A DNA stretch of 64,000 bases, taken from Mesodorylaimus sp. YZB2_4. Lineage: Eukaryota > Nematoda > Enoplea > Dorylaimida > Dorylaimidae. A program made the translations under genes and the position numbers. Each line of letters starts with the position of its first letter. Within the stretch, counting starts at the first letter, position 1. The stretch lies in assembly GCA_030248295.1 (NCBI GenBank), contig JASANH010000622.1, positions 1-64,000 on the forward strand, written 5' to 3'. Under the pieces are notes generated by a model. The model saw only the letters and a program-made list of their open reading frames with translations, was not told the DNA's origin and did not search any database. Shown here piece by piece: positions 12,570-41,824 of this stretch.

Positions 12570-15500
12570 ATGTTGCAAATGGCGACTGAAGAAAAACTGC
12601 TTGAATCGATTGCCTCAGATAAAAGTATTCCAGTGTCACAAAATGGCCGTGATCCGTACGGCACTGAGTGGTTTATTTCTTATCACGACCGGGATATTAT
12701 GAGTTCTCCTGACGGTGGAGCGCCCGTGCAAGCGAGGAAGGAGAGCGTTATTGCGGTGAATGGCCAAGCAAAGTAAGAGTGGTGCTATGCATCTTCTTTG
12801 TCGCGTGACCTGATAAGCCCAAACCTCAGTTACATTTCGCATACCAGAACCCTCACTAGGGATCCACACCAAAGGACCGAATTCATGGTTGATGATCAGC
12901 GGTATACAGAAGTATTATCGGCTCATGCTCATACACGGCTCACAGTTACATTTTAAGAAACGTGCCAATGGCAGAAATGCATATCCGGCGGAAATACAGC
13001 TCCCATTGTATTTCCTGCATCATATAATCAAGCTGATCTTGCATTTTGATACATGAATCGTACGACCGACAAGCCACCATTGTGCACTGCATAGGCCACA
13101 ACACAATGGTTCACTTTATACCCTCATTGATCTTCACCACAGCTCGTATTCAGGCTTGGCAGCTCAGCAGTATTGCTCATCCCAGACCCTTATTCTTGAC
13201 CAACTCTCATCTCCAGGCCATCACTCCATGAAGATCCAGCCCGACTATCGACTCTGACCGACACGATATTTGACATTTTCAAAAATCCAAAAGATGGCCG
13301 AGTATCTGTCAGTAATTTTTTGCAGGTCACTACCAACGGCTTTAGCCCATCATGATATAATTAATACATTTTTGCTTTCAGGCACTCATGGCTGTTGGAA
13401 TTCGCAGGAATGATCCCCGCTTGCGAGAAATGATGCTCAAGCTGAAACAGCTTCAACGAGACTTGGGAGCGAACTTCGATGCAACTGATCAACTTCAATT
13501 GAATTCTGCTCACTTCAAAGAGTAAATATTATTTGTTCATATTTCCGCGGATCGTGAGTGACAGTGTGTTGTGACTGGCTGTTAGATGTTCCGCCATGCG
13601 GGCTAATCGGCGTAAGACTGCCTTCATGTATAGATATTCCTTTGAAGGATCATCCAAAGCAATATTGTGTTTATCAACCGTGTCCTCAGAAATACGTTAG
13701 TAATTCGAGAATGGCCACTTTTCTGCAAAAAAATCGAAAGGCTGTACGAAAAGGCTAAAGAAGCTGACGCGGGAGAACTGCCTCGCTACATACCACAGTT
13801 GGCTGGGGCTGATCCGACCTATTGGGGCGTGTCTGTATGTACGATTGATGGACAGAGGTGAGTACAGTAATTAGGCGGTACTTTTCCTCCAAAAAGTTTT
13901 ACTAGCCCTTTAAGTCATCAGCACAGTCCAACAGGTCCATGTCTCCTTTGCGTAGCTCTTACTGCCTGTATGCATAGAATCTTCAGTGCCGCCATCTTGG
14001 CTATTTCGGATTCCGGGGCTACACTTCCAGGGATTCCGAGTACCTCCCCAGATCTACGTTAGGTCTTATTGTATTGTATATTCAGTCCACAGATGTATGT
14101 AGTCGCCGAAGAGGAAAAAAGAGAAATCAGCAGTGAATAGATTTACTGGTTTCAGGATTTTGATGATGCGGGATTAACCAGCTTATACTTTCCCACAGGT
14201 TTTCCACAGGCGATGCCTCAGAGCCATTTTGCCTACAAGCTGCTGCTTTTCCACTGAACTACGCAGTAGCCTTGAACGACCTTGGTTAAGAGATGGTGCA
14301 CAAATACGTGGGCCAAGAACCGTCTGGTCATAATTACAATGCCTTAGTTCTGGATGCCAATAGTAAGTCCATCTATACTTGATCCCGGGTCAGTCATTCT
14401 ATCCCCTGAAGATAACAGATAACATTTTCTGAGTCTATTTTCCATTCTGGGTATTAACCGAGTCGGTGTGCGGAGAAAATCCCTCTGTTGCAAAAGTCTA
14501 GTAGAACCTTCCTGGCTTCATCTTATTACGACACTGGCAGATTGAGGAGGGAGTGGTTTCTTGGCGTCCTAGTTTCTTGACTGGCACGTATCGATTCAAG
14601 CTTTTCATATCGGCTAAGAAAAGCCGACCACCAAGGAGACCTTGTCCCAGCTATTCCAGGAATGCTCGCTAGGTCGTTGGTCTTGGCTTGGAGATGGGCT
14701 TCTCGTGTCGCTAACATCAGGACCAGAGTGATGGCGCGTGTGCGAATAAAAAGAGGCAATTATGTATAGCGATATGTGCTGGCCAAAGACGGGCATAAAT
14801 CTGCATTACTGCTTGGACCTAAGCCAAGCACCATCTTAGGACTGATTAGTCGAGGAGCATGGGTGCATTGAGATTTCAAGTTTAAGTGCTGGCTAAAACG
14901 ATAGGACTTCTTGAAAGGCATTCCGTTTTTGTGCAAGTAACTTTCGCAGAAAGCAAGCGCATGTGAAACGTTGGAAAACACACTACGTACATAACCTTAG
15001 GAGAGCCGACGGAGGTTTCTTGTGGCCAGTGGTCGTACGCACATGCCCAAGTAGGTATAGCTCTACGGCCACGTGCCTGCCACGTGCTCAAATTCTAAAA
15101 CTGAACGACTGATCGATGATCGAGCCGAAGACCCTACTCGTCTAATGCATAGGAAAGTACATATGTACATGGCTAACATGGGAAACCATTTGACCTCTCG
15201 CAGCCTGTCCTTGTCTTTTCAGATAAGCCGCACAACCCTATGATCAATGCGGGTGCCATGGTGATCTGCTCGCTCTTGAAGGTAATGCCATGAATTTCTT
15301 TTACCTACAGTATGACACGGACTCGTCTAGTGCCATTAAGTATTCAGCGGTCTCGTGTGAACAGGACTGACCGTTTCTATATTTCCATGTTAACGCGACC
15401 TTGCTCTTTCGTCGTTATGAAGCAAAGTTTCGCTCGTCGCTCTGGGCACGAGACGCGGGTGGCTGTCGCCATTGCTAGTTCGCTTTTCCTCCTCGGGCTT

Positions 15501-18500
15501 CATCGTCGCATCGACTGGGTCTCCAGCAGGCGAGGCTCCAAGGCGGCGGTGCAATTTCTCTTTCTCTTTCTACTCGACACGCTCGCTGCCTTTCTCTTTC
15601 TCTATCTTCTGCGTCGAACGTACAGGCAGCCTAGCACCCGCACCCAAGCTCGTTCTCGCTTCGACCAGCTGCTACGAAGGGGGGGTGGGGGGTGGCAGCA
15701 GCAATTCTCTTCCTTCCGGCGGCAGCGAGAGTTGGAGAGGAGAGAAAGCTGCTGGCACAGAAGCTTCATACAGCCAACCAGCTGACTCTGTCGACCCGCC
15801 TCTTTCTATAGGTCCTTTCGTTCAGAGCCGGTCTCAGCTGTCTGCCTATTCTGTCGTTGCGTCGTCGTTGTGTCAGTAGTTTCAAAAATGTAGATCCAGT
15901 GCGGCTGCTAGTTTGGGATTTTTAGCCATATATGTACATACTGTATATGCTGTGCGCACATAGTAGCCCTATCCCTTCTATTCACCCATGGTCGCCTACG
16001 TCCTTTTGCTATTTCGCTCATGGACAAGACTTTTCATTTTCTTATGAATATACTCAACGTTTGTAAAGAAGTCGCCCAGTGCGGACTAGTTTCTCAACAT
16101 GCTTCTTGTCGGTAATAAGCGCCTGATTGGACACTGCCTCGAACCGCCCCCACTTTCACGAATACAGTAAGACATGGTCACGGCATTTATTTCTACTGCC
16201 TCCATCCCGTACAACCAGCCACACTTTCCGATTCCATTTCCTAATGGTGCACACTTTCAGAAAGAACTCAAGATCGCAGATCGCTTCGATTACGTAAGTA
16301 TACCTACTTGATATCTAGAACATCAAGAGATCATGGGTCCCTACCCTTATCAGTATTGAAAGCGGGTACGCCGGGTACAAAGTCGAGTCTGGGTAGGGAT
16401 TATGAAGCTGCTATCTTAGATTGATGGCTGCCTCTAATGGTCACGATTGATAGCGAACGATAGAGATATGTACAGACACACATCCGATCTGAAAGATACA
16501 CCCTTGCTAAGTGTATTCACTGCACATAACCTGATCAAGGCGCTATTTCTGTCCCGCCACTTTGAAACATAGTCGATGGCTTGTGATGGACAGGTGCTTC
16601 TTCGCGAGCTGGCCCTCGACTATGGCACCCCACTTCCATACCTAGGGATGCGAGTCACGCTAGGAAGGGAAATTGGTCATATGCTGCCATTACCATAGGT
16701 CTAATGGTCTTTTTGTTTCTCATTAGATCTTCAACTTCTACAGCAAGATCGCTGGTGGCGAGTACGTTGGGTTCAGCAATCAAACGTAAGTGGCTGCCAT
16801 TCTTATGTTTGATGCCGTTGTTATATCGGCTATAAACTAAATGTGTGCTCGCTTTCCGGATTTGTTATTATGAAATATATGAAAAAAGAGAACTAGTCTT
16901 GCGGGTGGGCCGAATATATGATGCCAATAACTGGCTGGCCTCGATTGGGGGCAGTGATGAATTCTATCTTCTCTATGTGCACACTTTGTGCTCCTGCTAT
17001 GTCACATCGCGCAATAGTCTCGTTCGTTTGTTAATGACAGAGTAACAGAGAGCTTTCTATTTTTGCCCGTTAGATACCTGTCCGAACGAGAAACAGCCGA
17101 CAGAAACTTTGCTTTGGGCCATTACATGCGAGAATCAAAGTGCTTTGCGGACGGAGTCAAGTTAGGAGAGATACTGGATCTCTATTTTCAGGTAGGTTCG
17201 TTCAGTCAGGCACCATTTTTTTCCTTTCTCTTGAACCGGATAAGGTTTGAGCGGTGAAAATTCTAGCCGCACCATCCGCAAGTTTGTTCTTTTACTTGCG
17301 CAAAGTAGGTCGCATTACTTTTTTACGTTTTTTTCGCTTTCCTCCTCCTCGTTCAATTGGAGAAAGCCGCGTGTCGTTTTTAGTAAAGTATGCACAAGAA
17401 AATGGCAGCAGGCAGCTAGGCTAAGCAAAAATCATTACCATTCAAGTGCTTCTGAAAAAGCTAAGCGTGAGAGAGAAAAAAAGAAAAAGTTTCGCAAGCA
17501 TTGGCACGTGCAAACGAGGAATGTGATGTGATCGATCGTAAAATCGATATGTACTTAATTAGGCCTACCTTTAGACATGTGCAGTGGAGGTCAATTGCGA
17601 ATCCGGTGCAGTCATAGCAGCCACATTAGCCAATGGGGGCGTGTGCCCGATTACAGGAGAACGAGCCATAGCAAGCGAGTGCGTCAGGGACGTATTATCG
17701 TTGATGTATTCTTGTGGAATGAATAACTATTCTGGCCAGTTCGCCTTTCGGGTAAGCCTTCTATATTCGCGTCCAATTAGGCTATCCTCGTCGACTGGCG
17801 AGGGAACAGTTCATACTTAAGCTGCTTTAAGTCGGGTGCGCAATGTTTATTGTGTCGCGTAGGTAACGTACGCATAATACGATGTGCTCATAGAAAAGTC
17901 GCACCTAAGCCCATCAGATCACATGAGACGAGGATGGGGGTATTCGATGCATTTACATTACTGCAGCCCTTCTGGATTTTCAGGTGGGTCTCCCCGCCAA
18001 ATCGGGCATATCCGGCTGTATCCTGTTGGTGGTACCGGACGTGATGGGCGTGTGCGTGTGGTCACCACTGGTTGATCAGATTGGCAACTCAGTGCGAGGT
18101 GTCCAATTTGCTAACGAATTAGTTGAATCTTGTAATTTCCATACCTATGACAAAATATCTTGTGAAAATGACAAAAAATACGATCCAAGAAGGCCAGAAA
18201 TCGAAACTAAAGCTCAACAAATTGTTGTTCTTTTATTCGCTGCGGCCAATGGTGACGCGACTGCTATGAGAAGGTGGGTGCTGCATCCTGGCTGATTATT
18301 CTCCGGTCATGCAATTACATAAGCTCATTTTCAGATTGCTCTTGCAAGGTATGGATTTGGGATTGGCTGACTACGAAGGACGGACAGCCATGCACATCGC
18401 GGCTGGTGAAGGCCACATCAACTGCGTGCACTTTCTCATGACGAAGGCTCGTGTTTCTCATTTGCCCAGAGACAGGTCAGTGGTGTTGATGGTTGTCGCT

Positions 18501-19268
18501 TCTAAGGTCTAACCTTTCGTTTTTTAACTGTAAGACCCAATTTAATATGGAGGTTGGGCTTATTAGTCTATTTTAAAGGTCAAGATAACAAGGGATCTTA
18601 GGAAACGGACAGTATGCTCATTTAGACATAACGAGTCTTTTCATGCACGCGTCAGTCCGGAATGTGCCCCATAATCATGTGATAACAATGACCGAGGCGG
18701 AGTAGGTGTCAAAAATAGGCACTGTGCGCCTCCTTTTTCTAGTTAATTAGAACTCTTTTTTGGCTTAGCTTGCGTAGAGCATGGCCTCGTATCCTACAGT
18801 ATGCTGAAGATTTTGAGCTATTCGAGGCGGATAATTTCTGTGACATGTTTGGTCGCATCGAGGTTTATGTTTCCATTGACATTTTAGTATGATCATGGGA
18901 AAAGGTCATAGCATGGAAAGCAAGCTATTCCCTTCCCCTGGTGCGACACATGCGTTTGCATAGAAAATGATCCCAGCTTCTTTTTGTGACGGGACCTTGA
19001 GTAAGGCCCTTCTACTTGAAACGTTGGATTAGAGAAAGCAGGGTCGAATCCTGTTGGTGGTACCGCAAATAGCGAACCCGCAATATGAAACAGGTGTTCT
19101 CACTAAAAAGTAGGTCGATTTTTTCATTTCAGATGGGGTCGAACTCCGATCGATGATGCAGCACATCACGGGCACCAGGATGTGGTTCAACTCATTTTGG
19201 ATTGGGACAGCAAGTTGAAGGCAGCGAATCAAGTTCAAGCCCATGGACAGCATGGGGCCACAAAGTAG
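12570..19268 (+). CDS. GLS: Glutaminase-ankyrin paralogue A, catalytic residues lost and one in-frame stop
   Basis: Exons: 12570-12772, 13217-13325, 13382-13521, 13648-13857, 14199-14362, 15223-15281, 16261-16293, 16727-16785, 17074-17191, 17575-17751, 17984-18273, 18335-18475, 19133-19268. All splice sites are GT..AG and all phases agree (612 codons). Order: helical N-terminal region, glutaminase domain, two ankyrin repeats. Active glutaminase makes glutamate from glutamine in mitochondria. Here the Ser-x-x-Lys pair (human KGA Ser286/Lys289) is Ala235 and Phe238 (QAAAF, 14239-14250). Tyr466 is Asn (CGMNNYSG). Equivalents of Tyr249 (RYIPQL), Asn335, Glu381, Asn388 and Tyr414 remain. Codon 251 (14287-14289) is TAA. 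A possible donor (gttaag, 14285) just before it would join in frame to exon 15223 and skip the stop, at the cost of 26 codons. Otherwise this is a recent pseudogene. The first exon is the least certain part. An intron at 16786-17073 is unique to this copy. Confidence 0.75.
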
Positions 19269-20922
19269 CGATCAATGGTAGAATGCATCGACAGTGACTG
19301 CTTGGACGTCTTCTCCAACCTGGACGCAGCTGAACTATCTACTTGATTTACTCTCAGCTTGGTGAAGTGCCCAAATTTTTTCCTTTAGCTTTTGCATCTA
19401 TCATTTTATAAGCAAATAGCACTCTTGAAAAGTACAATGGTTTCCCTTTTCCCGGTGTCCATGGGAGTACACAATATTTAGCGCTTATTGCCTAATTTGG
19501 AGGCTAGCTAGACCATAATTCCCTTTACTCGTACCGGCCGATTTTTGTGGTTGCATTATTTTTCTATTGTCATGTGCGTACTGTGTGACTGCGTCGTCGA
19601 TTCACGCGCGTTCTCTATACAGTGTTTTGAGTGAGCACGGAATGGTCTAGGTGGTAGTAATGGATATCGGCGTTAGATGACTTCACATAACCTTTCACAC
19701 CGTACTACAAGTTCCACGACGCGGGTAATCATGGCGCCGGATCGTTAGAGACACGGCTCTACTAATAGTGCTAAAATTAGTATGTACCCCGTGTCTGAAT
19801 TCAACTGGCGATCCGTACGGGCGCTAATTACTCTACAGCAAAAATTATTATCCGTGTTGTGTTCTGTGTTTTGTTTCGTGCATGTGCGTGTGCTGTCTTG
19901 CGTGTCATTTTTTAAAGATTTTATTTTTGTGGAGAAAGCGCAATTTAAAATGTGTCTTTATCATAGCCCTATATATAGGTCAAAAGAGTACTGTACTGCC
20001 GCGTGGTGGATGTGGACATAAAGTGTGAATGTATTTTTGAACTATTTTTCCTTTAGGCAAGCTTCAAAGAGTGATAGCTGCCGCCTTTGGATGTACCCCT
20101 GATAAGCTCGTTTATGGTTTGCTTTTGTGAGTCGTATCTAATTACACAAGCGTATCTGTGTTATCGTATTGATACAGTATTTTTCTTATCGTTTTATGCT
20201 GGTGCAGGCGCGCAGCGTAAGCGAAGCGAAAAATTACGTTTTATAGGTGAAACTGTGATGAGTGTGAGAAATGGATAGATATTTTTTTATAAAGTTCTAT
20301 ATTTTCAAGAGTTCTAGTTATTTTGCTTTGGTGATGTGCATTGTCTGATGCGAAAAATTTTTATACATTTTTTAACTTTTGCTACGAGAAGTTTTTTAAT
20401 AATTTTATTCAGCGTATGTCGGCCTGATTGTTTTCATTCCCTCTTGCGTACTCGGTTTAGAGTATATGATAGTTTAGTCTGCCGTAGGTAAGATATGGAT
20501 AATCAGTCAATATTTTTTCGACTTGTAGCATTTATTTGAATTCCAAGGAATTATTATCTACAACAAATAAAAAACTGTGTTGATTAGAATGGCGTGCTGA
20601 TTTGAAAGACCACTTGAAATTGGCATTGCAGACCGAGGCAAACATACGCAATCAGCCATATCCACTACAAACCATGACAAAAGTCATAGTACCCTCTCTC
20701 TTGTGTAAGTGCTATCCTCAAAATACTGAGACTAAACTTCAATCACTATTTAGTAAAACTTGACTTATCCGGAGCCCGCAATCAATGCGGTAAAACACAC
20801 AGATTTTCACCTTGCTCCAGTTTTATCAAAAACAGCATTCTAGAAAAATACAAAGTGTAATTATGGTACAGGTGACTTGCCAGTTAAAGAAAATGGCAGA
20901 CTCTTGTTCACCATCCTTACTA
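19269..20922. other. Intergenic DNA after glutaminase A
   Basis: 3' flank of copy A, AT-rich, with candidate AATAAA signals only far downstream (about 20565). No gene or structured RNA was recognised. Confidence 0.4.
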
Positions 20923-20924
20923 GC

Positions 20925-21300
20925 TTGGTACGGCGCAGTGGTTCGGATCGGTCTACCTATATTGCTGTAACTGGCGGCTGGACTCATCGCGGGTTCAATT
21001 CCTGGTGATGGAGGTCGATTTGAGAACCATAAACCCTCGCTGACCTTTCACGCCAGGCCGAGGTGCTCCGAGTGGAGAGACGAGGAGACACTCCCAGTTT
21101 TCGAAAACCGACATGGTTCAGACATCACCTGTCCATTGCCAGAGAGGTGCCAAGTCCAGGATGCCCTCGTGTGGAGGGAGTCCTAGTGGAGACAAAGAGA
21201 AGCTGCTAAGTGCGCTGGTCCCCGCGCAGCCTTGCTTATGAAGCTTTATAAGCAAGGCCGCTTATAGGCAACGAACTTGAGCCTAAACAAATTTTGAAAA
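20925..21300 (+). mobile_element. tRNA-derived SINE (copy 2)
   Basis: The head carries an A-box-like stretch (tacggcgcagtggttcgg) and, about 55 bp on, a B-box-like stretch (gcgggttcaattcctggtg), the arrangement of a pol III internal promoter. The body matches the other three copies ('gatggaggtcgatttgagaaccataaaccctcgc' region, split here by divergence). It has internal deletions relative to copy 3 and ends near an A-rich run. Confidence 0.75.
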
Positions 21301-22816
21301 GGTGGTATAACTTGACCCGGTTTATCAAAAGACATTAAGTATCTGAAATGGATTGGATTGATCGTGAGAACACGGCGCAAAAGGGATTGGCACATGGTCC
21401 TATACCAGCAAAGAGTATGACTCTGTGACTACAGTAGACTGTCTATGTGGTCCTTTTTTTTAAACACCAGATAACAGTTTCTCAAAATGTGGAAATCGCG
21501 TTTTAGTCATGCTGTAGCTCCGTGTTCAAGATGGATTTGCGGCCTTGCTGGGTTTTTACTCTCTTGGACACACCCTTCAGAGAATGTTGTGACCATTTCA
21601 GTATAAACATCAAGTTGTTGCTTTGCTAGTAACAAAAATTCTCTCGAGGGCAAAGTGTGCGATGCTGGATTAGGAAAGAGAAGATTGCTCGCTGGTTCAA
21701 AAAGGCCCACAATGTGTGTCATTTGAACTCCTTTTCAAATTGTAAGCTCGTAAATTATCTGTGGGAATTAACGGTGCTTGCGTGATTCAATCACCTACAC
21801 CCGTTGAGCATGACATAAGCCCCTACAACAACCATGGCCTTATACTGACAAGAATACCGCGGGCCCCTATACTGTACAGGAAAGATGAAAAGCGACGGGA
21901 ACAGGATAACATCGACAGGCACCAGAGAAGGCGTTAGACAGGCTCTTTCAAACTTTTGGAGTGCTGCACTGTTAGGAAAGACAAGCAGGAATAAGCTAGC
22001 TTGCTGCTTCGCCCATAAAGACCCAATTAGTAGCAGTAGAGATATTTTCCTCTGTTATTTTGAATTTCTCCAATATTTATTTGATGAAGATGATTAAGCA
22101 GCAGGAGCATACGAGTAGGAGTAGTTCTGCCAGGGGTTGAGCCGACGTATGGTGCACAGCCAAGGTAGACTTTGTTGGCGCATAAGTGAAGGTAGGTACA
22201 AATAGGATTAGCCTTCACAAACGATCTACTGTAGGCTGCTTAATTTAGAATGATAGATAATTTCACGGTCAAAAAGGCTCTGTTTTATAAAATTACATCT
22301 GTAATCGATCTAGGATCATGAAGTCTGGAAATCTTCTTTGACTCTTCTGAGCATAAGCTGGATAAGGCCTTATTTCATTTGCATAAAAAGTAAAGTTCAA
22401 TGCAATTATCTGGTAGCTGGCTGGCTCGCGCTACTAGATTATACATTAGGGCCAACCAATCTGCCAGATTGCTGCGCCTATCAGAAAAACCTAGTAGTCT
22501 GCCGTCACCCAACTCTTATCACCGTCTCTCGGCAAAACGAAAGTTACTGTTTGTCGCAATGATAAAGTCAAACTGTCACGATGTTTATGCTAGCCCTGCG
22601 CAGATTGTTGTGTCAGTGATAAAGTTTTGTTATCACTGTCTTGGAAACCTTATACGCTGGCTCCGACAGACCCTTGCTACACTTTGCTTGATCGTTGCGG
22701 CTGCGTTGTATTGGCTCGATCTGGGCGACGCTTGTTTTTACGGCCGCAGATCAGGCGGCCAACTCTGGGCCTTGCACCCACGTGTCGGCACGTCAGATGG
22801 CAAGGCGGTAGGGAAA
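21301..22816. other. Intergenic DNA before glutaminase B
   Basis: No gene recognised. Several short ORFs without domains; the last part runs into the proposed promoter of copy B. Confidence 0.4.
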
Positions 22817-23402: not shown

Positions 23403-26400
23403 ATGCCAATCCGACGCGTATTTAAGGTTGAAGGTAACCAATCGCAGGTTATCATTCCGCAGCAAGTTGAAGTCGAGATAAAACCATCGAAACCAGTTCA
23501 GCTCGACGTCCAAAAAGAAAGAGAAAAGGAAGTAGAGGAAGCGGAATCTGGAATTGAAGACTTGAAAAACGGTGAAATCGAAAACGAAGAGTCAAAAAAC
23601 GGTGCTCAATTAGCCGAATCTGTGCAGCCCACAAAAACCGTTCTTTTTAATTTGGAAGAACCGAAAAAACCAGCAGCCATGGTCGATCAATCCGATGATG
23701 CAATGTCTTTCATAATGACAGAAGATGAAGATGCTCAAAGTATGATCGGACCCAGCGATATCGACGGACGTATCCGAAAACGATCGATCAGTTATGAAAA
23801 TCCGGAGCTGATGAAACTGATCAAAACGGCTGGTAGACCTGGGAGCAGACATTACTCAGATGCGCCTTTGTCATCTTTGTCCGAAGTCAGGTGAGATGAA
23901 AACAAACACTTTACTTTTTCCTTGTTGCTTTCGGTTTTTTGGAGCGAGAATAGGAAGCCTACGTGGTGTCACTTGCCCGCCCTCTTATCTGCATACTTGC
24001 TCCGAGTCGGGTATGCCATATACATTCGACGTCTCCAGGCTCTCTTGCTATGGGGAAGCGCTTTACTCTAACACACCACCAAGTTAGTCGATGTGTGTTG
24101 TTGCTAGCAGAGGGCTACACATATGCTCCCCCCCCCCCCCCCCCATTCTTAAATACGGCTGCAAAAAGGAGAAGTTTTTCTTTTCTCGAATGTATAGTTA
24201 GTTTAGACACGCTGAGTGGAGCGAGCAGGGCGCATTTCAACAGGTTTTGACTGCACTCAAGCGGAAAGTTATTTTGTTCGCCTGCATAACATTAGATTAG
24301 TCCGCATTGCCTGGCACCTGGCGCAATGCATTTCTCGTGCCAATGCCTAACGCACTTAGCAAAATGCTTTCAGACAAATAGGTAGACAAAAACGAAACAA
24401 GATTTTTCTGAGTGATAAGAACAAACGCCGAGCGGTGGAAGTCACCAAAATCTGGGACTAGAAATGGTAGCGAATGACGAGATGTGAATGATGGATTGCC
24501 AAGAATGTCACAAGTCAGCAGGACGAGCCCGGGAACAGAGACGAACTACAATGTCTTTATTGTTATCGATGATGATCATCGTACCCTAATCGATCACATC
24601 TCTCGCTGTCCTTGTTTTCTTCATTGGCAGTGACTGATTCGATTTCCTTCGCCGTACAGGCGGTGTCGCAGCGCAGCCAAAAATACAAAAAAAGCCTCAG
24701 GCTATACGCTGCTAGGTGAAATGTAGGACCGCGTGATCAGCTGATTGATCGATTGTTGACGGTGGAATGCGCCAGTGACACTTTATAGGCGATTTTTGCC
24801 ACGTGGGCGTTTTCTAGGAACACCCTGTTTTCAGCTGATTGCCCACATTGACACAAACACTTGCGGGTGTCGTTCGGTTAGGCATGGCGCAACGCAAATA
24901 AGAAAACGCGGCAAAAACTTGAGAAAAGGCGGTGACAGTAGGATGAAAAATTTGAAATGCAAATTTTCCGAGTCTTACAAACATTGGCACAATGCCAGCT
25001 GCTTTTGCATCGAGTTAAAAATATTCCACGTTCTTTTAGCGCACCGTCACATCGAACTTCCTCCGTGCCGTTATTCCTTGGTGGCGATCAACCGGAACCC
25101 AAGCAACGTCTCACGCATCAAGTCGTCGAGTAAGCGCTTGCTACAGTATATTTGTCAATGCAGTTCAGATACTAGGTGGACTGTCTTCGACCTTGGCTCT
25201 TCTTCCATGCATAAGAGTGCCCTAAACGTCTAGTTTTATCAGATGGGCTGTTCTGGTGCCACAGAGGTCAGTTTTTCATAGTCATAAACACTCGCTGACC
25301 ACACCTGCCCCTCAGTGATCTCACCGAGTGAAGAGGCGAAGCTTAACGAGTGAAGAGTCATGTCACTTGTCCAATCAAAGATTCGCAGAGGTGGGGTGCT
25401 TCCTCCTGGTCGAGACAGATGTGGGAAGACGGTCATGCTGTAAGATCTGATCCCAAACCCAAACTTGAAATAGACGGACTCCAGAAACGTATCAAACCAA
25501 ATATGGGTAGATTCTTCGGTGACAAACATGCAGCTGCAGTCTCTCAGATTGCCGGTTTAAGGGAAGACACTGAAGTCGAGAACACAGCACCTGGATCGGC
25601 CGCTGCAGCCGCGGCTGATACCATTTTCGAAACTTTCAAGAATTCGGAAACTGGAAAAATCTCTGTTCGCAAGTTCCTCAATGTAAGTTTGTACAAAATC
25701 GTGGATAACTCCGGCCTAAAATTTTAATCTTTGCAGGCTTTGACCGCGAATGGTATAAGAACTACAGACCCGAGGATGGACCAGTCCATGCACAAGTTGA
25801 AACGTATTATGAAGCGATACGGTGCTGACTTCGATGCAGCCAATACCTTGCATTTGGATGAGACCGAGTTCAAAGAGTATGTTCATGTTTTACATCATCA
25901 GACGTAGGTATGCGCGCTGAGGGTGGGTACGCATCACACACAAAGTGATTTACCAGCTGGCTCGGAGAGTCGACCGCCCACCCGCCCCTAACGCACCCCG
26001 CACCCCACCCGCCCCTTACGCACCTCGCATTTGCGGCATGTGGCCTCGTAAAGACCAAATGCAGCTCGGTTTTGAACTGATTATATTTCAGAATGATCAA
26101 ACCTAATGCTATGACTATCAGCCGCTTCTTGCGTACAAATTTTGTTGTTCCTGAATGGAACGAATTCTGTCGTCATATCTTTCGTGTATACTCCCTTTGC
26201 AAAAACAACGATCAAGGAGAACCATCGAATTTCATACCACAGTTGGCAGCCTACGACAAGAAGTTGTGGGGCGTGTCCATATGCTCAGTTGATGGGCAGA
26301 GGTGAGCAGTGATCTCCTCATGTGATTATCTTTATCCCATTATCCTTCCCGCTTGCAGATTTTCCACTGGAGACTACAATGTGCCCTTCTGTCTTCAAGC

Positions 26401-28753
26401 CGTCAGCCGAGTGCTCAACTATGCTATTGCTCTAAACGATTTAGGGTCGGAAAAAGTACACAGTTTTGTTGGTCAGGAGCCATCAGGCCGGAATGCAAAG
26501 GAATTGGTCCTGGATGAAAACAGTAAGCTTCATTTGTAATGCGTCTGGGTCCTTATTGCTGAACGGGGTGACCAGATGGAGATTTTGTTTCCACCTGTAA
26601 CCCTCTGCTGGCAGGCCATGGCGAATGGGAGAGAGTAATCGACACTCTCCCGTGGCTGGGAGACTTTAGCCTCTCGGGTTGATCTTTCACGCGTGAATTG
26701 CCAGCTCCAGTTGGATTTTTTGTCCCGCTGACTTCGGTGGGCAACCTCCTTCCTGCGCCTGCCAGGCTTGGTTACACACCACGCAAAGAACCTAGGGCAG
26801 CCTGCCAAGTCTTCCGACCTGCTCCATGGCTGAAACATCAACCTGATGGGTGACGCTCCCCGCTGCCAACTCTATGCAGAGCATCGATTGGCTTTCGAGC
26901 CTTTACGCTTTTTCATCCAGTTTTGCAGATTTGCAACGTGCCTTTGTTGTTATAGATAAGCCCCATAATCCAATGATCAATGGTGGAGCGATTGTGGTCG
27001 CTTCGCTGTTGAAAGTAAGAACGGCAATTGCATCATCTTTGCCAAGCTGACAAGCTTTTACGTTGTAGGCAGACGAAAAGCACATGGCGGATCGATTTGA
27101 TGCTGTAAGTCCCGTTTTATTTGGTGACTTGTGCATAAACTTCAGGTTTGGTCAGGTGTCATAGCCGAACTGAGACTGGTAATGCTAGGCTGAGTTTACC
27201 TGGTTTCGCCAGGCAAACCACCTTATCAGTGGCGGCAGGTTTGTGGAATGTGTCACTCTTCCTTTTTACACTCGTAAATAACCAGGTGGAACTAATGAAG
27301 GGTTTCTCGGAACAGATGTCCTTGCGTTATACCCGTGCTATCGATGGACACATTCTAGCATTATTCATGCCATGAAAAAAATGACAGCAGCTGTTTCGAC
27401 AAAGTATAATGTTTGAGCAGCCTATGCATTTTCCTTTTTCCAGGTGGACAGCGTTTACAAAAGCATGTCAGGAAACAACGAATTTGTCGGCTTTTGCAAC
27501 CAAGCTTACTTGTCTGAACGGCAAGTCTCGTTCAGAAATTACGCAATGGGTTACTTTTTGCGAGAAAATAAATGTTTGCCCGAACCGGAACGACTGAACG
27601 AAACTCTTGAACTTATGCTTCAAGTATATGCGTTTGGAATTTCTATTTTCACAGACCGTACTATCCCCTCATTCTAGCTGTGTGCTGTTGAAGTATCATG
27701 CGAGTCCTTGGCCGTAATGGCAGCCACCTTAGCCAATGGTGGCGTGTGCCCGATCACTGGTGAATATATGATCGGTAGCCACTGCGTCCGAGATGTCTTG
27801 TCCCTGATGTACGCGACGGGCATGAACGACTACTCTGGTCAGTTCGCCTTCCACGTAAGCATTGCAATGTGCTATCTGTCGTCTGGGCTTCTTTCAAATA
27901 ACATTTTTAGGTCGGCCTTCCGGCTAAGTCGTCGATATCTGGCGCCATCATGCTGGTTATCCCCAATGTCATGGGCATTGCTCTCTGGTCGCCACCACTG
28001 GATACCCGTAACAATTCTGTGCGTGGATTGCAGTTCTGCACCGAACTGGTCAAAGTGTTCAATTTCCACAACTATGACAACTTGCGTTTTACTCAAAGAA
28101 AATTGGACCCGCGTAAAATGCAAGTGGAGAATAAGGCACACCAAGTTGTCCTGTCTTTGTTCTCCGCCGCCAATGGCGATTTGACTGCTTTGAGCAGGTG
28201 GGTGACCACCGGCTAGTGCACAGGACACACCTTTAAACTTTTCTTTGTTGTTTTTAGATTTTTCTTACAAGGCGTGGATTTAACAGTGGCTGACTACGAT
28301 CGTCGTACCCCTCTGCACATAGCTGCTGCTGAGGGTCACTTGAACTGCGTAAAATTCTTGGTCGAAAAGGCGAGAGTGCCTAGCCGTCCTGTTGACAGGT
28401 AAGCCAATAGAAGATTGTGGTTTCTGGGAATGATCAGCAGGGTAATTTGGTTCAGATGGAACAACACGCCAGCCGATGATGCCCGCTATCACAATCATCC
28501 CGAAATAGCTAACTATTTGGAGAACTGGGATTTGAAACGTCAATCGGCGCCACAATTTCCTGGAACCCAGTCTCAGCCAGTGCTGAACGGCATCCCTGCT
28601 TCTAATTCGCCATCCGAAGCCCAGCCGGTCGCTATCAGCACCCGTGTGCCGAAATCTCGTGATGGCTACGATGCTTCACAGAGCGAAGAAGAAGAGTATG
28701 ACAGTGGTGAAGGGTCATCGGTGCCCGGATCCGCGTCTAAGATAACCCATTAG
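23403..28753 (+). CDS. GLS: Glutaminase-ankyrin paralogue B, predicted pseudoenzyme
   Basis: Exons: 23403-23890, about 25445-25682 (start of this exon uncertain), 25737-25876, 26092-26301, 26359-26522, 26956-27014, 27069-27104, 27444-27623, 27678-27854, 27911-28197, 28258-28398, 28456-28753. The frame is open throughout. The N-terminus is acidic and lysine-rich and carries the motif RSISYENPELMKLI shared with copy D. Then come the helical region (DTIFETFKNSETGKISVRKFLN), the glutaminase domain, two ankyrin repeats ([17 protein letters not shown]...) and a disordered Glu/Ser tail. Compared with human KGA: Tyr249 to Phe (NFIPQL), Ser286 to Ala and Lys289 to Arg (QAVSR, 26396-26410), Tyr414 to Met (LELMLQ), Tyr466 to Asn (TGMNDYSG). 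Asn335, Glu381 and Asn388 are kept. Hydrolysis by the known mechanism therefore looks impossible, although the gene looks intact and maintained. Confidence 0.85.
26530..26880. repeat. Dispersed repeat family 2 (copy in glutaminase B intron)
   Basis: Part of this intron segment (about 26700-26780) is the reverse complement of about 59520-59595 in the RNF19 intron. A second block, gctgaaacatcaacc, is present in both places in the same orientation (26831 and 59621). The mixed orientation suggests a composite or rearranged element. Ends and class are unknown. Confidence 0.45.
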
Positions 28754-32970: not shown

Positions 32971-33443
32971 ATCACGAAGCGAACGGCAGCCGCGGTGGTG
33001 CAGCGGTTCGGCATTCGTCTCTCCGTATTGCTTGGGGCCGAGTGGCTGGACTCGTCCCATGTTCGATCCCCAGCGATGGAGGTCGATTTGAGAACCATAA
33101 ACCCCCTACTGACCTTGCACGCCAGGCCGTGGGTGACTCACCCGGAACCCTAAAGGTGCTCCGAGTGGAGAGACGGACGCCAAACGAGGAGACAGTCTCG
33201 GCTGTCGAACACCGACAGAGTTCAAAGCCCGCCCGCCATCGTCCGAGGAAGTCGGTGTGCAGTCCATGATGCCCTCGCGCGGAGGTGCTCCAAGTGAAGA
33301 CACGCAGAGGGACGCTGCTGTATGTGCCGGTTCCCGCACAGCCTTCCTTATAAGGTTTGCTGCTGGCCGGGCCGGCTATATGCAAAAACGGGCTTCAGCC
33401 CACAAAAATTTAAACAGAAGACAAAAAAATCACGAAGCGAACG
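32971..33443 (+). mobile_element. tRNA-derived SINE, full length with target-site duplication (copy 3)
   Basis: The element occupies 32986-33428. It is flanked by a perfect 15-bp direct repeat, atcacgaagcgaacg, at 32971-32985 and 33429-33443. The head shows an A-box-like stretch (gtggtgcagcggttcgg) and a B-box-like stretch (atgttcgatccccagcg), as in a pol III tRNA-type promoter. A non-tRNA body of about 300 bp ends in an A-rich tail (acaaaaaa). The duplication and tail point to insertion by LINE-type target-primed reverse transcription. Confidence 0.88.
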
Positions 33444-33774
33444 AAGGCAGTAACCGACCGCGTACTGTACAAGCACGATCACGAATGAGGTCGTTTTGCA
33501 ATTGTGTTGTGTGTATGCTTTCGCAATGTAAAGTCGTGCGTTGACTCCTTGAACACTGCCTTTTTTCTGTGATGATCGCTGGCCTCGGAGAAAAAAAAAT
33601 TTGTTTAGTGGGCAAGTTCTCAGGCAAAATGACCTGGCAGCGTGACCGAAGAAGGGGCGACGTGCATAGGAAGGTTTTATATGACTGGAGTGCTGTACTA
33701 TCAAGCTTACACACTTCTTAACGTGGTATTATCAGGAGTTTAGGGACTATTGAAACACTCGAAGCCTCTCAAGG

Positions 33775-36700
33775 CTAATCCTCGCCTTTCGACGCCCAGC
33801 TTTCGATGAATTCGGCAGCCTCGTCGTGCCCTTCGTTACGAGCATCATCCGATGGCGTGTGACCGTATCTACAGTATGATAAGGACGCGTACAGCTCAGC
33901 ATCTACCCTTTAGGTCAGGGGCTTACCTGTCCCTTGGATTCGGAGATACTTGAGCCACTTGCAACAGGAACTTGATGCAGTCCATTCGTCCCTCGGCGGC
34001 TGCTATATGCAGTGGTGTCCGGCCATCGTAATCGGACGCATCCAAGTCCACATGTTCCAGGTAACATCTGAAAGAATTATGGTAGGGTGCGCTAATAAAA
34101 TGCAAAACCTTTCCCGTGCCGGGAATCGAACCCGGGCCGCGCGGGCGCTCCACATATGAGAGCCGCGAATCCTAACCCCTAGACCACACGGGAGATGCTT
34201 AAATGCAGTAAGAAGAAGAAGCGTGGGCACCTGTGCCTGCTCCATAGTCCCTAAATTTGCCGTCATGTCAGTTAAAACACTCACCGTCTTAACGCGACCA
34301 AATCTCCTTTAGCCGCTGCGAACAGTGTGAGAGCCACCCGCAACGTAGGACCGCCTTGGATTTCCACCCGTTTCGGGTCCAGTTTTCGTTCAGTGCCAGT
34401 CTCAACGTCGTAATTGTGCAAACGAAATTTGGTGACGAACTCGCGACAGAACTGTACGCCTCGCACCGAATTGTCATAAACGTCCAGCGGTGGCGACCAT
34501 ACAGCGATCCCCATGACGTTAGGCACGATCAGCATGATAGCACCAGAGATGCTTGAACGAGCTGGAAGGCCGACCTGCAGTCAGACAGCGTTATCGCTTG
34601 GAAAAATGAAGGGAAGTTTGCCCTTACGTAGAACGCAAATTTGCCCGAGTAATCATTCATACCACAGGAATACATCAAGGACAGGACGTCCCGCACACAG
34701 CTGCTGCCGATGACGAATTCGCCTGTGATTGGACATACCCCTCCATTGGCCAACGTGGCTGCGATCACTGATAATGACTCGCAGGTGACTTCCACTGAAT
34801 ACAGCTAAAAGGGGCCTTCGTTATAGATGCATTTTCTGAACATGCATATGCTACGCATCCTGTGCTCGCTTATTGTTACACTTCGAGTGTACCTACTATT
34901 TTTCGGCAACGATGATGCACTAAAAAGTATGGTGCAGCGACAACTTGAGCAAACCTTGCGCTGTCTCACGTGAGGTCCAAAACATGACCCGTCCAGACCG
35001 CTGCTACTGACCCTATCTCCCCCTTGTTCATCTCACGCTGAGCAATAGCTACAAGCACCTGAGGAGCGGCAGATGCAGCCGCACAATCGCGCGCATCAGA
35101 TAAGCCTTTCAGATACCCACTTGCAACAGCAATTCTATAATTTCGTTCAACCGCTCTCCTTTCGGCAAGCACTGATTCTCTCGCAGCAAATAACCCAAGG
35201 CAATGTTCCTAAAAAGTTCAATCCGATGTATCATTCTCAAAAGAGACCGTGCGCTATGCAGCCAGCACCTGTATGAGATGTGCCGCTCGCTCAAATAAGA
35301 CGTGTTGCTGAATCCGACGTGCTCTTTGCCCGCCATTTTCTGATACAAGCTGTAAACCTGATAAGAATGATAAGAATGAGCTTGCACGCGAGTATGGCCA
35401 CTGAATACTGTCCATATTACCGAGTCAAACCTGGTAGCCATGTGGGGGTGCTTGTCCTGAAACAGGCAAGATACAGCGGGTACAGTAAGTCAGATGGGGG
35501 GAAGGCCTACATACTTTCAACAGCGAGGCCACAGCTATGGCGCCAGCATTGATCAGAGGATTGTGAGGCTTATCTGAAACAGCCAGTAATAAGCCTGCTG
35601 GTCATTCGCTCAGATGGTTCAATCGATGTTCATGTTCACGTTTGGCCACATCAGCAAAACCAGGTAGGTGAGGGGATGCGTCATACTCGTATAAGACACG
35701 CTAGCCGCCACTGTCAGCCTAACTGCTCAACACTTTGGAAAAGCGAGTAGACAATAAGGACCACTTCGGTGTGGAGCTTGCACACTCATTTGCCTTGCAT
35801 GCTGCGATAGAGGCTTGGGTAAGTGCAGAAGTATGCAGCTTTAGCTTAGCTCACGATTAGACACGATTTACCCAGCCGCCAGTTGAACACTTACTCTCTT
35901 CATTCAGAATTAAATCCTTGACATTTCGACCGGACGGTTCTTGGCCAACGAAACTGTGTACTTTCTTGGCACCGTAATCATTTAATACGATGGCATAGTT
36001 GAGGACCCGGCAACAAGCTTGCATGCAGAACGGTACGTTGGCGTCTCCAGCAGAAAACCTAGAATTCTCCAAGTTGTTTCCAAAAGTGAAAACTCCTCTG
36101 ATCATAACAGCCGCACCTTTGTCCGTCCACTGAACATACGGCCACTCCCCACATGTCCGGACTGTAGTCGGCCAACTGAGGAATGAAATCGGATATGCGC
36201 CCTTCGCTGATACCTTTGCAATCGGAATAAAGTTCATAGATTTGACGACAAAGGCGCAGCCAGTCAGAAACGGCAAAATTGGTCCTAAGAACGCGATTTA
36301 TGAACATGACGTTTCTGCGAATCACGCTGAAAGCGAAAAGCAAGTCAAGAGCTGATCACGAGACTATGGGGAGGAGCGCACTCCATAAACTGTTGTTCAC
36401 TCAGGTGCAATGTATCAGTTGCTTCGAAATTGGTCCCGTAATGCTTCAACAATTCCTTTAATGTCTGCATGGATTCATGCAAGCGTGGATCTGTCGTTCG
36501 TACTCCTGTCACTGTGATGGCCTGAAATACCGAACTCGCTGACTTCCATATCAGATTCGTATAGCATGCCATACTTACATTCAGAAAGTCATTCACGGGG
36601 ACTTTGCCCGTTTCCTCATTTATGAACATCTCGCATATTGCCTCTTCAGTGGCTCGAAACCCGTCCCAGCTGGCGCCATTGCGATCGTCTTTTTGACATC

Positions 36701-36919
36701 TTCATTGAAAGCATATGCTAATTACAACATGCATACTGTACTGTAAGGACCCCGCAGCTGTGTTTGGTCAACTGTATTGTGGCATGTATTTGGTGCTAGC
36801 ACACACCATAGTGAACCCACAGGTCCTATCCAACATGTCCTTTAAGCCACTTACACGCCCAGCTCGTCGGCTACCAACGTGGCCACATCGTCGTCTTCTC
36901 TATCTTCAGGCTGCGGCAT
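33775..36919 (-). CDS. GLS: Glutaminase-ankyrin paralogue C, predicted pseudoenzyme
   Basis: Exons: 36919-36855, 36699-36579, 36521-36382, 36326-36117, 36058-35895, 35573-35515, 35456-35421, 35357-35269, 35208-35121, 34804-34628, 34574-34285, 34067-33927, 33868-33775. All join in phase to give 557 aa. The N-terminus is short and acidic ([11 protein letters not shown]), without the long first exon of B and D. Active-site changes relative to human KGA: Tyr249 to Phe (DFIPQL), Ser286 to Ala193 and Lys289 to Arg196 (QACCR; Ala codon at 36016-36018), Tyr414 to Leu (IELLLQ), Tyr466 to Asn (CGMNDYSG). Asn335, Glu381 and Asn388 equivalents are kept. Two ankyrin repeats follow ([20 protein letters not shown]). 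A 60-bp intron at 35209-35268 is found only in this copy. The intron 34068-34284 holds a tRNA-Glu gene. Copies C and D are oriented opposite to A and B. Confidence 0.88.
34111..34193 (-). tRNA. tRNA-Glu-CTC: tRNA-Glu (anticodon CUC) with 11-nt intron
   Basis: 83 bp on the minus strand. Acceptor arms TCCCGTG and CACGGGA pair fully and are followed by discriminator A. The D-arm (GTCTAGGGGTTAGGAT) and T-arm (CGGGTTCGATTCCCG) are canonical and carry the A and B boxes. The anticodon stem CGCGG/CCGCG closes a CTCTCA.. loop with anticodon CUC. An 11-nt intron (tatgtggagcg) sits at the standard site after position 37; removing it leaves 72 nt, the normal tRNA-Glu length. It lies inside intron 34068-34284 of glutaminase copy C, on the same strand. 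Confidence 0.93.
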
Positions 36920-38474
36920 TAGTAATTGCTGGAAGATACTTGAAAATGATGCGCTGAAATTGAATCGTGGCCTCACTTTCTAGCTGCTCGCAAATAGCGA
37001 CTAAAACCGAGTCAACACTGGTTTATGGCAGATTTTTGTGGATTTTAGTCGGCGAGCAGTGGGTGATCTCAACGGGACATACCTTTCATGACTAACCAAA
37101 TACACAATCGATCAGAGGCCCAAAAATGGCATACTCGACGGGTGGTTAGAAAGAAGAGGAGACGGACGTGAAAGAAATCTCTCTTTTAAAACTAACCGCC
37201 TACAGAGCGCTTCTATTTCTCAGTGCGACTCAGTGATTGATTTGCACAAACCCACGGTATGATTTATCGCAAATCGGATTAACTTTGACGTAACATGTAC
37301 GCAAAAGATTAGGCATGTCTACTGTAACAGTGGTTCAGAGGCACAGGGGATTCAAATGCAGGAACTGTTTGACTAATGATTGGGCGACGACATCCGTGAG
37401 GTGCTCAGGTCCTGGTGCAGTCTTTTTAACCATACACAATTGGTATCTTCCAGATAGCTACGGCCTGCATAACGTGCTCATGTGGTATCGAATAAAAGTA
37501 AGTATTTCACTTACCTCTCCTCGGCCATCGACTCCGAACTTGCCCTCGTTCGATCAACTGATACCAAAGTCCGGCCCACATCTGGATCAGATGATCTTGC
37601 AGAGGCACAATCGCTTTTTGAGTCAGCACTTGTCAAAGAGAATCGGACATGCATAGCATCTTGTTCAACTTCTGACCACATGATCACGTTCGTTGAGACC
37701 AATTGCAGTTTTGAGGCAAGCAATAGCAAGACTTTTGGCAGTGACCTAGAGAATCAACGTGCATCAAGAGGCAGCAGACGGTTAGCCACTACGTAACCTT
37801 GCTGAATGACGCTTGCAGCAGTTCTAAGCAGGGGAGGAATTGAATTCCGGATTGCGTAAACAAAATCCACGGGGCTCGTTTGGAGGCCACAAGCCTGATT
37901 GACAATGAGCATATTGGTACTGACATAGATTGCCTAAAAGATAATCGATCGAATAGTACCCGGAGAGCAGTCAGGCCTTGAATTCTCATAATTTCTTGTG
38001 TATCGATGCTCCTGCTGTGTTATGTCCTGAGCTCATACCTATAATTGATAAAATTGGTTTGACGCCCGTCATTTGACATTTGTAGATGGTCAGTTTGAAG
38101 GTGTTATGTGGGTTTTTAAAAGTACATACTCCTAACGCACTAGCCCAGTTAATGTTTGTAAACATTAGCCCAGTTAATGTTTCTTCCTTGACTGCATTCC
38201 CCCACGTGCCATACTTTTTTACGAGTTTTATAATTGACAAGTTACTTACACCATCGTGACTGCATTATAAACAAGGCAACGAATAAAAGGCTCGATAAAA
38301 AGGCACACCAGAGGCTACCTAATGGCAAAAGTGCTTTCCACAAGCCCCTCAAAGAAGTGTAAAAGTCAACCAGTCTGAAACGAATGAATCACAATTTCAA
38401 TCACGCGATCTCATACAACCACCAGACAGCAACTAGGAGGCACGAGTGTAACAGAAGCGCACAGTATGGAAGTC
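36920..38474. other. Intergenic DNA between glutaminase C and D
   Basis: 5' flank of C and 3' flank of D. No TATA box or gene recognised. Confidence 0.4.
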
Positions 38475-41400
38475 TCAAGGAGACCCGGTCCAAGACTCAA
38501 CCGTGGACATCCCCTCCCCACTATCGTAATCACTCATGTACTGGGAGCAATCATCAGAGAACGTGTCTGCGATCGATCGTGGTACGTGTCCGCACGAGTG
38601 CCTCGATCGCAATGATGCACTCGATGCTCCTTCGGGGATACTGAACCGTGGACGAGTTTGCGCGAGTGTGTTCCATCGGTCCAAGTAATCAACAATTTCA
38701 TCGAAACCGTGAGCTCTGGCATCATCGGCTGGCGTATTCTGCCATCTGCAGTAGGACAAAGGTGGCTGTGGGATGATGGGAAAGACAACAAAAAGAGGCA
38801 TACCTATCCAAAGGTCTGTGAGGTACTCGAGCCTTTTGCAAAAGGAATTTGACACAGTGCATGTGGCCCTCTGATGCGGCAACGTGCAGCGGAGTCCGGC
38901 CGTCGTAGTCAGCCTGCGTTAGGTCGACGCCTTGAAGGAGGAATCTGAAAGTGCAGGCGGTAAGGCAAGACTGATTTCCTAACAAAGCACGAGATACAAG
39001 ATGAGCAAAGGAAAAGACAAGACAAGACAAGACGGGGGGTGTAGATTCGTGAGGAGGCACATCGCCTACCTTCTCAATGCAGTAATATCTCCATTAGCGG
39101 CAGAAAACAGCGTTAAGACAACCTGCTGAGTTTTGGTCTCCACCTGCATCCGGCGTGGATCCAGTTTTCGCTGCGTGAACCGAAGATTATCGTAGTTATG
39201 AAAATTGAACGTCTTCACCAAGTCTGTGCAGAATCGAATGCCCCGAACCGAGTTGTGATATTGGTCCAATGGTGGCGACCACATGCACACGCCCATGACA
39301 TTCGGTACGACCAACATGATTGCACCCGCAATGCTCGACCTGGCTGGCAAGCCGACCTGAACGTGAAAAATCTCATGATCCAAGTCAAGCTCTCAACCAG
39401 CAGCATACGAGCTTACATGGAATGCGAATTTGCCCGAGTAATCGTTCACACCACACGAGTACATCAAGGACAACACATCTCTCACGCATTGGCTTCCGAT
39501 CACGAAGTCTCCAGTTGTCGGACAGACCCCTCCATTGGCCAACGTAGCTGCCATGACGGCCAGTGACTCGCACGTTACTTCGATTGAGTACAGCTAAAAT
39601 TGAACAAAGTTTAGACGAAATAGCCCTGTGAACGCGTGTCAGCTCGCCCACCTGCAACAATAATTCCATAGTCTCATTCAACTTGGCATTCTCAGGAAAG
39701 CATTTATTTTCGCGCAGGAAGTAACCGAGGGCGTAGTTACGGTATGAAATCTGTCGTTCGGATAGATAGGATGTGTTGCTGAATCCGACGTACTCCTTGC
39801 CCGCCATTTTGCTATAGACATTGAAGATCTAAAAAGACCGATTTGCATGAAGGGTCGCAGCCTGAATCTCTCTAGAGGACTTACCGATTCAAATCGATCA
39901 GCCATATGACTGCACTTATCCTGCGAAAAAAGAGAATGCATCATGCACAGTAGGAGTAAGGGCGACAGATGAGACAAGTCTTACGGTACCTTAACTAATG
40001 ATGTAACAACAATGGCGCCAGCGTTAATCATAGGATTGTGCGGTTTCTCTAAAAAAATATTGCATTATTCAAGGTCAGATGCAAGAATATGGATAGCTTA
40101 CTGTCCTCATCCAGGACCAATTCTCGAATATCTCGTCCCGATGGTTCTTGTCCAACGTACGAGTGCACCTTCTCCGCTCCATGATCGTTCAATGCAATGG
40201 CATAGTTGAGAACACGGCAACAGGCTTGTAAGCAGAACGGAGTATCGGCGTCGCCTGCTGAGAATCTAAAATGGGATCATGTAAATTTTGCCTACAGTAT
40301 GTTTCAAAAAAATACTTCTGTCCATCAACGCTGCAAACTGAGACCGCCCAAAGATTAGGATCGTAATCGGCCAGTTGGGGAATGAATGTGGATACTTTAC
40401 CACCCGCGATTTTCTTGCACGATGAGTACAATGCAAATACGTGTCGACAAAACTCGTGCCATTCCGGTATAACGAAACTGGTGCGAAGAACGCGATCGAT
40501 GAATCCAACGTCCTTGATGATCGAACTGAAAATAAGAAACTTCGCGATTACCGTACTTGTTTATTCGGATTATAGCCAAATAGTTGACGGCTTGAAACTC
40601 GTTTCCACTCCCAGGAGAATCTGCGGGCGTCATCTCCAGCTGCTCGTCAAAGTGCGAACTATATTAGACTAGACAGAAATTACTTTTTGAATTCCTCCGC
40701 CTCCAGTAAACAATTGTTGGTCGAATCAAAGTCTGTGCCCATTCGGCGAAGCACGCGTTTCAAATTGTGCATTGAATCACTGAGACGAATATCTGTCATG
40801 CGAATCCCAGTTTCAGTTAAGGCCTGAAATCGACTAGCATATGACCATCATTGGGGAGGAGGGGGAAGGATACTTACGTTCAAGAACTTATTCACATGGA
40901 CTTTCCCTGTGCCTGGGACCTCGAACATTTTGCTAATACTATCTGCAGTGGACAGAAGGCTTGGTAATTCTTGAGCCTTTCCGTTTTCAACAGACCTAAA
41001 ACGTGGGCCACTTACGATTAGTTGTTATGGGAAAAGGTTGGAGGTCAGGTTGATATGGAATGAAGTGACATACTCTGAGGCACTGCTATGACTACTATCG
41101 ATGCTGTCCTTCTTTCCATCTTTGACATCTGGCAGTTCTTCCAACTCATTTTCGTTCACCATCGACGAAGGCATCAGTTTCTCCAATGCTGTGCGGTATG
41201 ACATTCTAATAAAGAAAGTGAGATTCGTGCGGAGGCATTAATGCGCTTTGGGGGAGACTGGTGGGGTAAAACTATAATGCAACAAAATGACAGCATGGAC
41301 TAAGGATCGTCACTAAAACTCTACTCCACTCACCCCGAGAAAGTGATTGTTTATGACATCAGGATTCAACAAATCTTGTATGGCTGCCAGCCCTACCTGA

Positions 41401-41824
41401 TAGAGCCCACTACCCCATGTTTTGTCCGCAGACCTTACCTTTCATCACTGAATGATCCTAATGCTCTGATATTTCCTAAACTTTTTCGCGAAGGGGCGCA
41501 ACCTTTCCTCGACTCGTCTCCAATGGCCATCAATCGGATAAACTCTGGATTGTCATACTGCACTGATCGTCGAGGCAGACCTACTGCGCGTCCGAAATTA
41601 CGTTGGACAGCCGCTCGAGCCGCGGCTTCTTCTTCAGGCGACAATGTCTCATCGTCGACGTTGCTGGTGGCATTTCCATCATTCTTGTCTTCTACGATGC
41701 TCTCAGGCGGCGATGACCATCTGACAGAGTCCTTACGGATTTGCTTAGCGTCATCTTCATCCTCAACTTCAGCCTCAGCCTCGTTGCCAGCCACTTCCTC
41801 AGTTACACGTTTCAGAATCTTCAT
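38475..41824 (-). CDS. GLS: Glutaminase-ankyrin paralogue D, predicted pseudoenzyme
   Basis: Exons: 41824-41439, 41205-41074, 40995-40878, 40823-40684, 40525-40316, 40265-40102, 40048-39990, 39920-39885, 39828-39652, 39593-39417, 39356-39070, 38944-38804, 38745-38475. All join in phase to give 765 aa. The long acidic N-terminus contains [15 protein letters not shown], the motif shared with copy B and with the alternative first exon at 43.1-43.5 kb. Then come the helical region, glutaminase domain, two ankyrin repeats ([20 protein letters not shown]) and a disordered Ser-rich tail. Changes relative to human KGA: Tyr249 to Phe (TFIPQL), Ser286 to Ala343 and Lys289 to Arg346 (QACCR; Ala codon 40223-40225), Tyr414 to Leu, Tyr466 to Asn (CGVNDYSG). 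Asn335, Glu381 and Asn388 equivalents remain. I chose the first ATG of this exon (41824); a TATA box lies 63 bp upstream. No classical mitochondrial presequence is evident. Confidence 0.9.

Follow-up and report, generated by a model that had tools for sequence, protein, structure and literature searches.

Within the first 64,000 bases of contig C224 (bases 1-64000, the whole stretch of DNA analysed here and referred to below as the window) lie four glutaminase-like genes that, according to an earlier note on this DNA, are missing the very residues on which glutamine hydrolysis depends. Such a locus raises the question of whether these genes are relics, enzymes with a rebuilt pocket, or proteins that have been maintained for some purpose other than catalysis, and whether the same genome also retains a glutaminase in which the reaction centre is preserved.

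Glutaminase genes in the window and in the genome

A search of the whole genome (145 Mb in 1067 contigs) with the glutaminase profile PF04960, in which all 29 of 29 candidates were scored, returned 21 exon-level matches: 13 on C224 (all of them within the window), five on contig C254 and three on contig C28. These matches are read as six genes, corresponding to copies A and B on the forward strand and copies C and D on the reverse strand of the window, together with gene E on C254 and gene F on C28. All six were modelled manually from the sequence, exon by exon and with GT-AG introns; for E and F the N-terminal exons are missing from the models. Copy A (12570..19268, +) is described by 13 modelled exons and a 612-residue model that carries a premature TAA in exon 5, while copy B (24957..28753, +; 12 modelled exons, 718 amino acids), copy C (33775..37681, -; 14 modelled exons, 624 amino acids, with an uncertain N-terminal start) and copy D (38475..41824, -; 13 modelled exons, 765 amino acids) are open throughout. 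A tblastn search at E 0.01 detected no glutaminase pieces in the window outside these modelled exons.

All four copies display the KGA-type (GLS) architecture of EF-hand_14, glutaminase domain and ankyrin repeats in a Pfam search for which the stop in A was masked as X and C was represented by a shorter model of 531 amino acids; the domain order of E and F is the same. The glutaminase domains of A, B, C and D score 352.3, 324.9, 328.8 and 336.3 bits against PF04960, for which the curated cut-off is 27, and when the domain sequences only are compared with the NCBIfam equivalog TIGR03814 ('glutaminase A', cut-off 255.4 bits), A (282.0), B (257.6) and D (259.5) are found above the cut-off and C (251.8) below it. 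The proposed first exon of B (24957..25129, +), which is tentatively joined to the following one, might encode a mitochondrial presequence, with five K/R and no D/E among residues 1-40 of the model; D begins with a long acidic, serine-rich N-terminus (11 D/E in 40 residues). These predicted starts hint that B and D may reside in different compartments.

Additional features of the window were recorded alongside the gene models. In the reverse-strand frame upstream of C (37681-37770), an open, leucine-rich stretch follows a possible AG acceptor, such that a further first exon is possible, and a TATA-box-like sequence can be discerned by eye near position 41890 (-), a short distance upstream of the start proposed for D. 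A tRNA-Glu (CTC) gene (34111-34193, -) sits in one of the introns of copy C, in the same orientation, and at 83 bases probably contains an intron of its own. An Rfam search at the gathering threshold gave no match. Approximately 12 kb from copy D, an open reading frame with a GatC domain (Glu-tRNA-Gln amidotransferase subunit C; 53801-54307, -) represents a second glutamine-related gene, in a neighbourhood that is possibly due to chance. Open reading frames with YTH (3068-4714, +), serpin (7409-8665, -), F-box (6215-6778, -) and LRR (5168-6010, -) domains were also noted.

The reaction centre of copies A to D

When the spliced products of A to D are aligned over the domain of human KGA, whose residue numbering is used throughout, the alignment is free of gaps in all four, and the motif Q-S286-x-x-K289 is replaced, as re-read directly from the DNA, by QAAAF in A (14236..14250, +), QAVSR in B (26396..26410, +) and QACCR in both C (36007..36021, -) and D (40214..40228, -). 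The position of Tyr466 is occupied by an Asn codon in every copy (A, 17722..17724, +; B, 27825..27827, +; C, 34655..34657, -; D, 39444..39446, -). The catalytic centre is lost in A to D, and the absence of the Ser-x-x-Lys pair and of Tyr466 that the earlier note had reported for all four holds for the spliced models: Ser286 is Ala in each, Lys289 is Phe in A and Arg in B, C and D, Tyr466 is Asn in each, and Val484, which contributes to the oxyanion hole, is uniformly Ile. N335, E381 and N388, correctly listed in that note as remaining, are retained in all four copies, as is R387.

The alterations go further in B, C and D, in which Tyr249 is Phe and Tyr414 is Met (B) or Leu (C and D), two replacements that had likewise been claimed and that the KGA alignment bears out; both positions are Tyr in A. 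In the same three copies N319 is lost, F318 has become Ala, Val and Ile, Y394 has become Phe, Leu and Phe, and D386 has become Phe, Tyr and Tyr (in B, C and D, respectively), and the changes P290V and G483S are common to all three. The loss of an aromatic lock at F318 was considered for all four copies and was rejected, the aromatic residue being gone only in B to D; copy A has Tyr, the residue that occupies this position in human GLS2 (PMC10912226). A displacement of the Ser-x-x-Lys pair to some other part of the active site was also considered and rejected, as there is no S-x-x-K at 286 in a gap-free alignment and the only such strings in the four domains are found at 343 in all of them (SLLK or SLVK), a position at which SLIK stands in human KGA, E and F, and at 360 in B.

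The genome-wide search for a copy with an intact S-x-x-K, which had been suggested at the outset, yielded two canonical loci, E and F, on contigs other than that of the window. Both carry QSVSK and CGMYDYSG and possess Tyr249, Tyr414, Tyr466, Val484, N335, E381, R387 and N388 as in the human enzyme, such that a single genome would contain two probably active glutaminases and four catalytically stripped copies.

The significance of these replacements was assessed against bacterial relatives: a single scan of prokaryote genomes yielded 184 confirmed loci, of which the best 80 were all translated and aligned. Having been chosen by similarity and by two conserved peptides, these 80 leave the most divergent glutaminases outside the sample. 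Among these best 80 of 184 relatives, 79 carry Ser at position 286, where the other has a gap, and 79 carry Lys at position 289, where the other has Ala; the human residue is present in 80 of 80 at F318, N335, E381, N388, Y466 and V484. The sole exception at both 286 and 289 is one and the same locus (L087), whose match in the scan does not start until query residue 72, past the motif. Because S286, K289 and Y466 are near-invariant among the 80 relatives, the catalytic changes in A to D are not attributable to chance. Across the domain, 56 columns are near-invariant (at least 98% human residue in the 80 bacterial relatives, and the same residue in E and F); 42 of them are kept in all four copies, 14 differ in one or more, and five (S286, K289, F318, Y466 and V484) are changed in all. 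All five fall among the 10 active-site columns of the 56 (hypergeometric 6.6e-5), and seven of the eight columns lost jointly in B, C and D do so as well (hypergeometric 3.9e-6), figures that are descriptive since the active-site set was drawn from the first finding, from PMC10912226 and PMC13204110 and from general background on the enzyme, and was fixed after the data had been seen. The loss in A to D is concentrated at the reaction centre, and the domain, the substrate-site residues N335, E381 and N388 and the accessory domains are retained.

Descent, selection and the stop codon in copy A

Trees computed under LG+G4 with ultrafast bootstrap, from every third of the 80 bacterial loci (27 of 80), human KGA (the only eukaryote from outside this genome) and A to F, group the six genes with human KGA rather than with bacteria (support 100) and set all six apart from human KGA (support 96). 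This grouping, the richness of the genes in introns and their combination of EF-hand_14, glutaminase and ankyrin domains are the grounds for regarding the genome as animal-like. Within the six, A to D are joined with a support of 100, B, C and D with 100, C and D with 97, and E and F with 100. When 16 columns, including every changed catalytic one, are removed, the support for A to D is 81 and that for the six-gene group is 83. Intron positions and phases offer a separate line of support: nine are common to all six genes, one is found only in A to D, three only in E and F, and one in A, E and F. By both measures A to D form one clade, as judged from sequence, and the intron common to A, E and F fits A as its earliest branch. 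The presence of Ala286 and Asn466 in all four copies would, on the simplest reading, place the loss before or early in the duplications.

Copy A is the broken member of this clade in the present assembly. Its in-frame TAA (14287-14289, +), at residue 251 of the model, lies within the 164-base exon 5 and also appears inside the genome-search match at 14194-14364; it is the only interruption of the 612-residue model, and with an exon of 164 bases, skipping of the exon that contains it would shift the frame. Past the stop, copy A is conserved as well as B, C and D, the residue on which E and F agree being present there at 182 of 268 columns in A, 181 in B, 169 in C and 181 in D. The TAA may reflect a gene that was lost recently, a null allele that still segregates, or a mistake in the assembly.

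The four copies share 52-68% amino-acid identity with one another, and synonymous sites are saturated: pairwise dS by NG86 is undefined in 14 of 15 pairs (E-F, 2.54), and YN00 gave no value in 15 of 15. The branch codon model was used solely for tests against omega = 1, since the branches to A, B and D and the internal branch to E/F reached the upper length bound in some fits; omega = 1 was rejected on the terminal branches of A, B, C and D (2dlnL 24.3, 32.2, 14.0 and 51.7) and of E and F (11.9 and 4.6). On the stem of B, C and D it was not rejected in the same model (2dlnL 0.1), and a burst of change at the origin of these three copies is possible. The differences between B and D at codon positions 1, 2 and 3 are 0.29, 0.16 and 0.59, and the three positions rank alike in the remaining 14 pairs. 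The rejection of omega = 1, together with this codon-position pattern, indicates that B, C and D have long been under constraint.

With their domain conserved, their catalytic residues lost and selection maintaining them, B, C and D fit the pattern of pseudoenzymes, and A carries a stop. Part of what had been proposed, namely an expanded family of glutaminase pseudoenzymes with intact folds and ankyrin repeats, stands in that the copies are monophyletic, are devoid of the catalytic residues, retain EF-hand_14, glutaminase and ankyrin domains and are under purifying selection on their terminal branches; the description 'intact' applies only to B, C and D.

Possible roles and comparison with known systems

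The explanation that we favour, and to which we attach moderate confidence, is that A to D are paralogues which no longer hydrolyse glutamine and which have been retained to assemble with, or to regulate, an active glutaminase. One glutaminase would have been stripped of its nucleophile and its catalytic tyrosine, either before the duplications or at an early stage of them, giving rise to the ancestor of A to D, and the dead copies would then have been duplicated and retained by selection. We infer that the resulting proteins are unable to hydrolyse glutamine, may nevertheless bind it or glutamate, and would act by assembly, as non-hydrolysing partners or as subunits of tetramers or filaments that tune E, F or other partners.

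A precedent for such a role is taken from human GAC, in which the mutant Y466W binds glutamine without hydrolysing it and forms filaments that persist instead of dissolving (PMC10912226); A to D replace the same residue. The filament contacts F355, F373, N375 and Q416 are unchanged in all four copies; the human residue occurs at these positions in 68, 70, 55 and 62 of the best 80 of 184 bacterial relatives. All of A to D match the human residue at 24 of 31 columns in which bacterial conservation is 80-95% and at 15 of 36 in which it is 60-80%; at these rates, the retention of all four contacts by chance has a probability of approximately 0.1, and lends weak support to a filament role. Among the remaining published GAC filament contacts, F378Y and Q379L are found in all four copies and D412E in B to D; the first two replacements are also the commonest states among the bacteria, Q379L is present in E and F as well, and D412E matches 46 of 80 bacteria. 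With the lid residue Tyr249, the aromatic residue of the activation loop at 318 and Tyr414 absent from B to D, and Y394 and D386 changed, these copies may be unable to form the human substrate lock, and perhaps also the tetramer. A more specific version, advanced only tentatively, is that A to D serve as 'substrate-trap' glutaminases of natural origin, which enter common assemblies with the active enzymes and set filament lifetime because they cannot hydrolyse the ligand, in the manner of a built-in genetic Y466W; if true, it would describe a conserved clade of such proteins in an animal lineage.

A pure amino-acid sensor or binding protein, operating through EF-hand or ankyrin partners and without co-assembly with an active glutaminase, would also make use of what all four copies retain (N335, E381, N388 and R387, and the EF-hand_14 and ankyrin domains) and of the long acidic, serine-rich N-terminus of D. 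Such a function appears unlikely, as B to D have lost Tyr249 and Tyr414, two residues that were seen to touch a glutamine analogue when human KGA was docked and simulated with it (PMC13204110). It is distinctly less probable that the copies are neofunctionalised enzymes, with a pocket rebuilt for another reaction or substrate through other residues, such as the Cys-Cys pair at 287-288 of C and D: those cysteines, the changes shared by B, C and D beyond simple loss (Y249F, Y414M/L, P290V and G483S) and the rejection of omega = 1 on their terminal branches would all suit such a history, but B has Val-Ser at 287-288 and the motif offers no nucleophile candidate common to the three, Cys287 is already present in human KGA, and none of the copies retains Lys289 or Tyr466. 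That the cluster is decaying and its members are non-functional relics is very unlikely; the premature stop in A and the failure to reject neutrality on the B-C-D stem point in that direction, against which B, C and D have uninterrupted reading frames across their 12, 14 and 13 modelled exons after saturated synonymous divergence, neutrality is rejected on their terminal branches, and A is conserved after its stop like the others. An assembly, haplotype or sequencing artefact, to which the single isolated stop in the otherwise normal gene A might be ascribed, is highly improbable as the source of part of the pattern, since the catalytic changes are common to four diverged genes and are left unexplained by it.

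Non-hydrolysing paralogues kept for assembly or regulation remain our preferred reading. Human glutaminase couples its activity to the assembly of filaments and to the release of product (PMC10912226), and natural copies without a reaction centre, present beside active ones, would make a non-catalytic role of the fold, in assembly or ligand sensing, open to experiment. They also illustrate that naming by profile labels dead proteins as 'glutaminase', the Pfam cut-off having been passed by four of four copies and that of NCBIfam by three of four. Searches of an open-access library directed at this question showed no described glutaminase pseudoenzyme among the papers listed, with which the earlier note's statement that it knew of no family of this kind is consistent; pseudoenzyme paralogues are a known kind, and a clade of them among glutaminases would be new.

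Among known systems, human KGA/GAC (GLS) and GLS2 resemble A to D in that the whole glutaminase domain aligns (D scores 403 bits to 4o7d_A over 289 residues) and that, in KGA and GLS2, ankyrin repeats follow this domain (PMC10912226); A to D differ from KGA/GAC in the absence of S286, K289, Y466 and V484, and B to D additionally in that of Y249, N319, Y414 and the aromatic residue at 318. The GAC mutant Y466W likewise has Tyr466 replaced, and keeps substrate binding and assembly without hydrolysis (PMC10912226); it is a laboratory mutant, whereas A to D are natural, have Asn at 466 and also lack the Ser-Lys pair. Plant PDX1.2 is similarly a non-catalytic paralogue found beside an active enzyme, with a suggested regulatory role (PMC6829848), although it belongs to another enzyme and pathway, and a regulatory role for A to D is our own proposal. 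The paralogues E and F of the same genome share with A to D nine intron positions and the same domain order, and differ from them in having kept QSVSK, Tyr466, Tyr249, Tyr414 and Val484.
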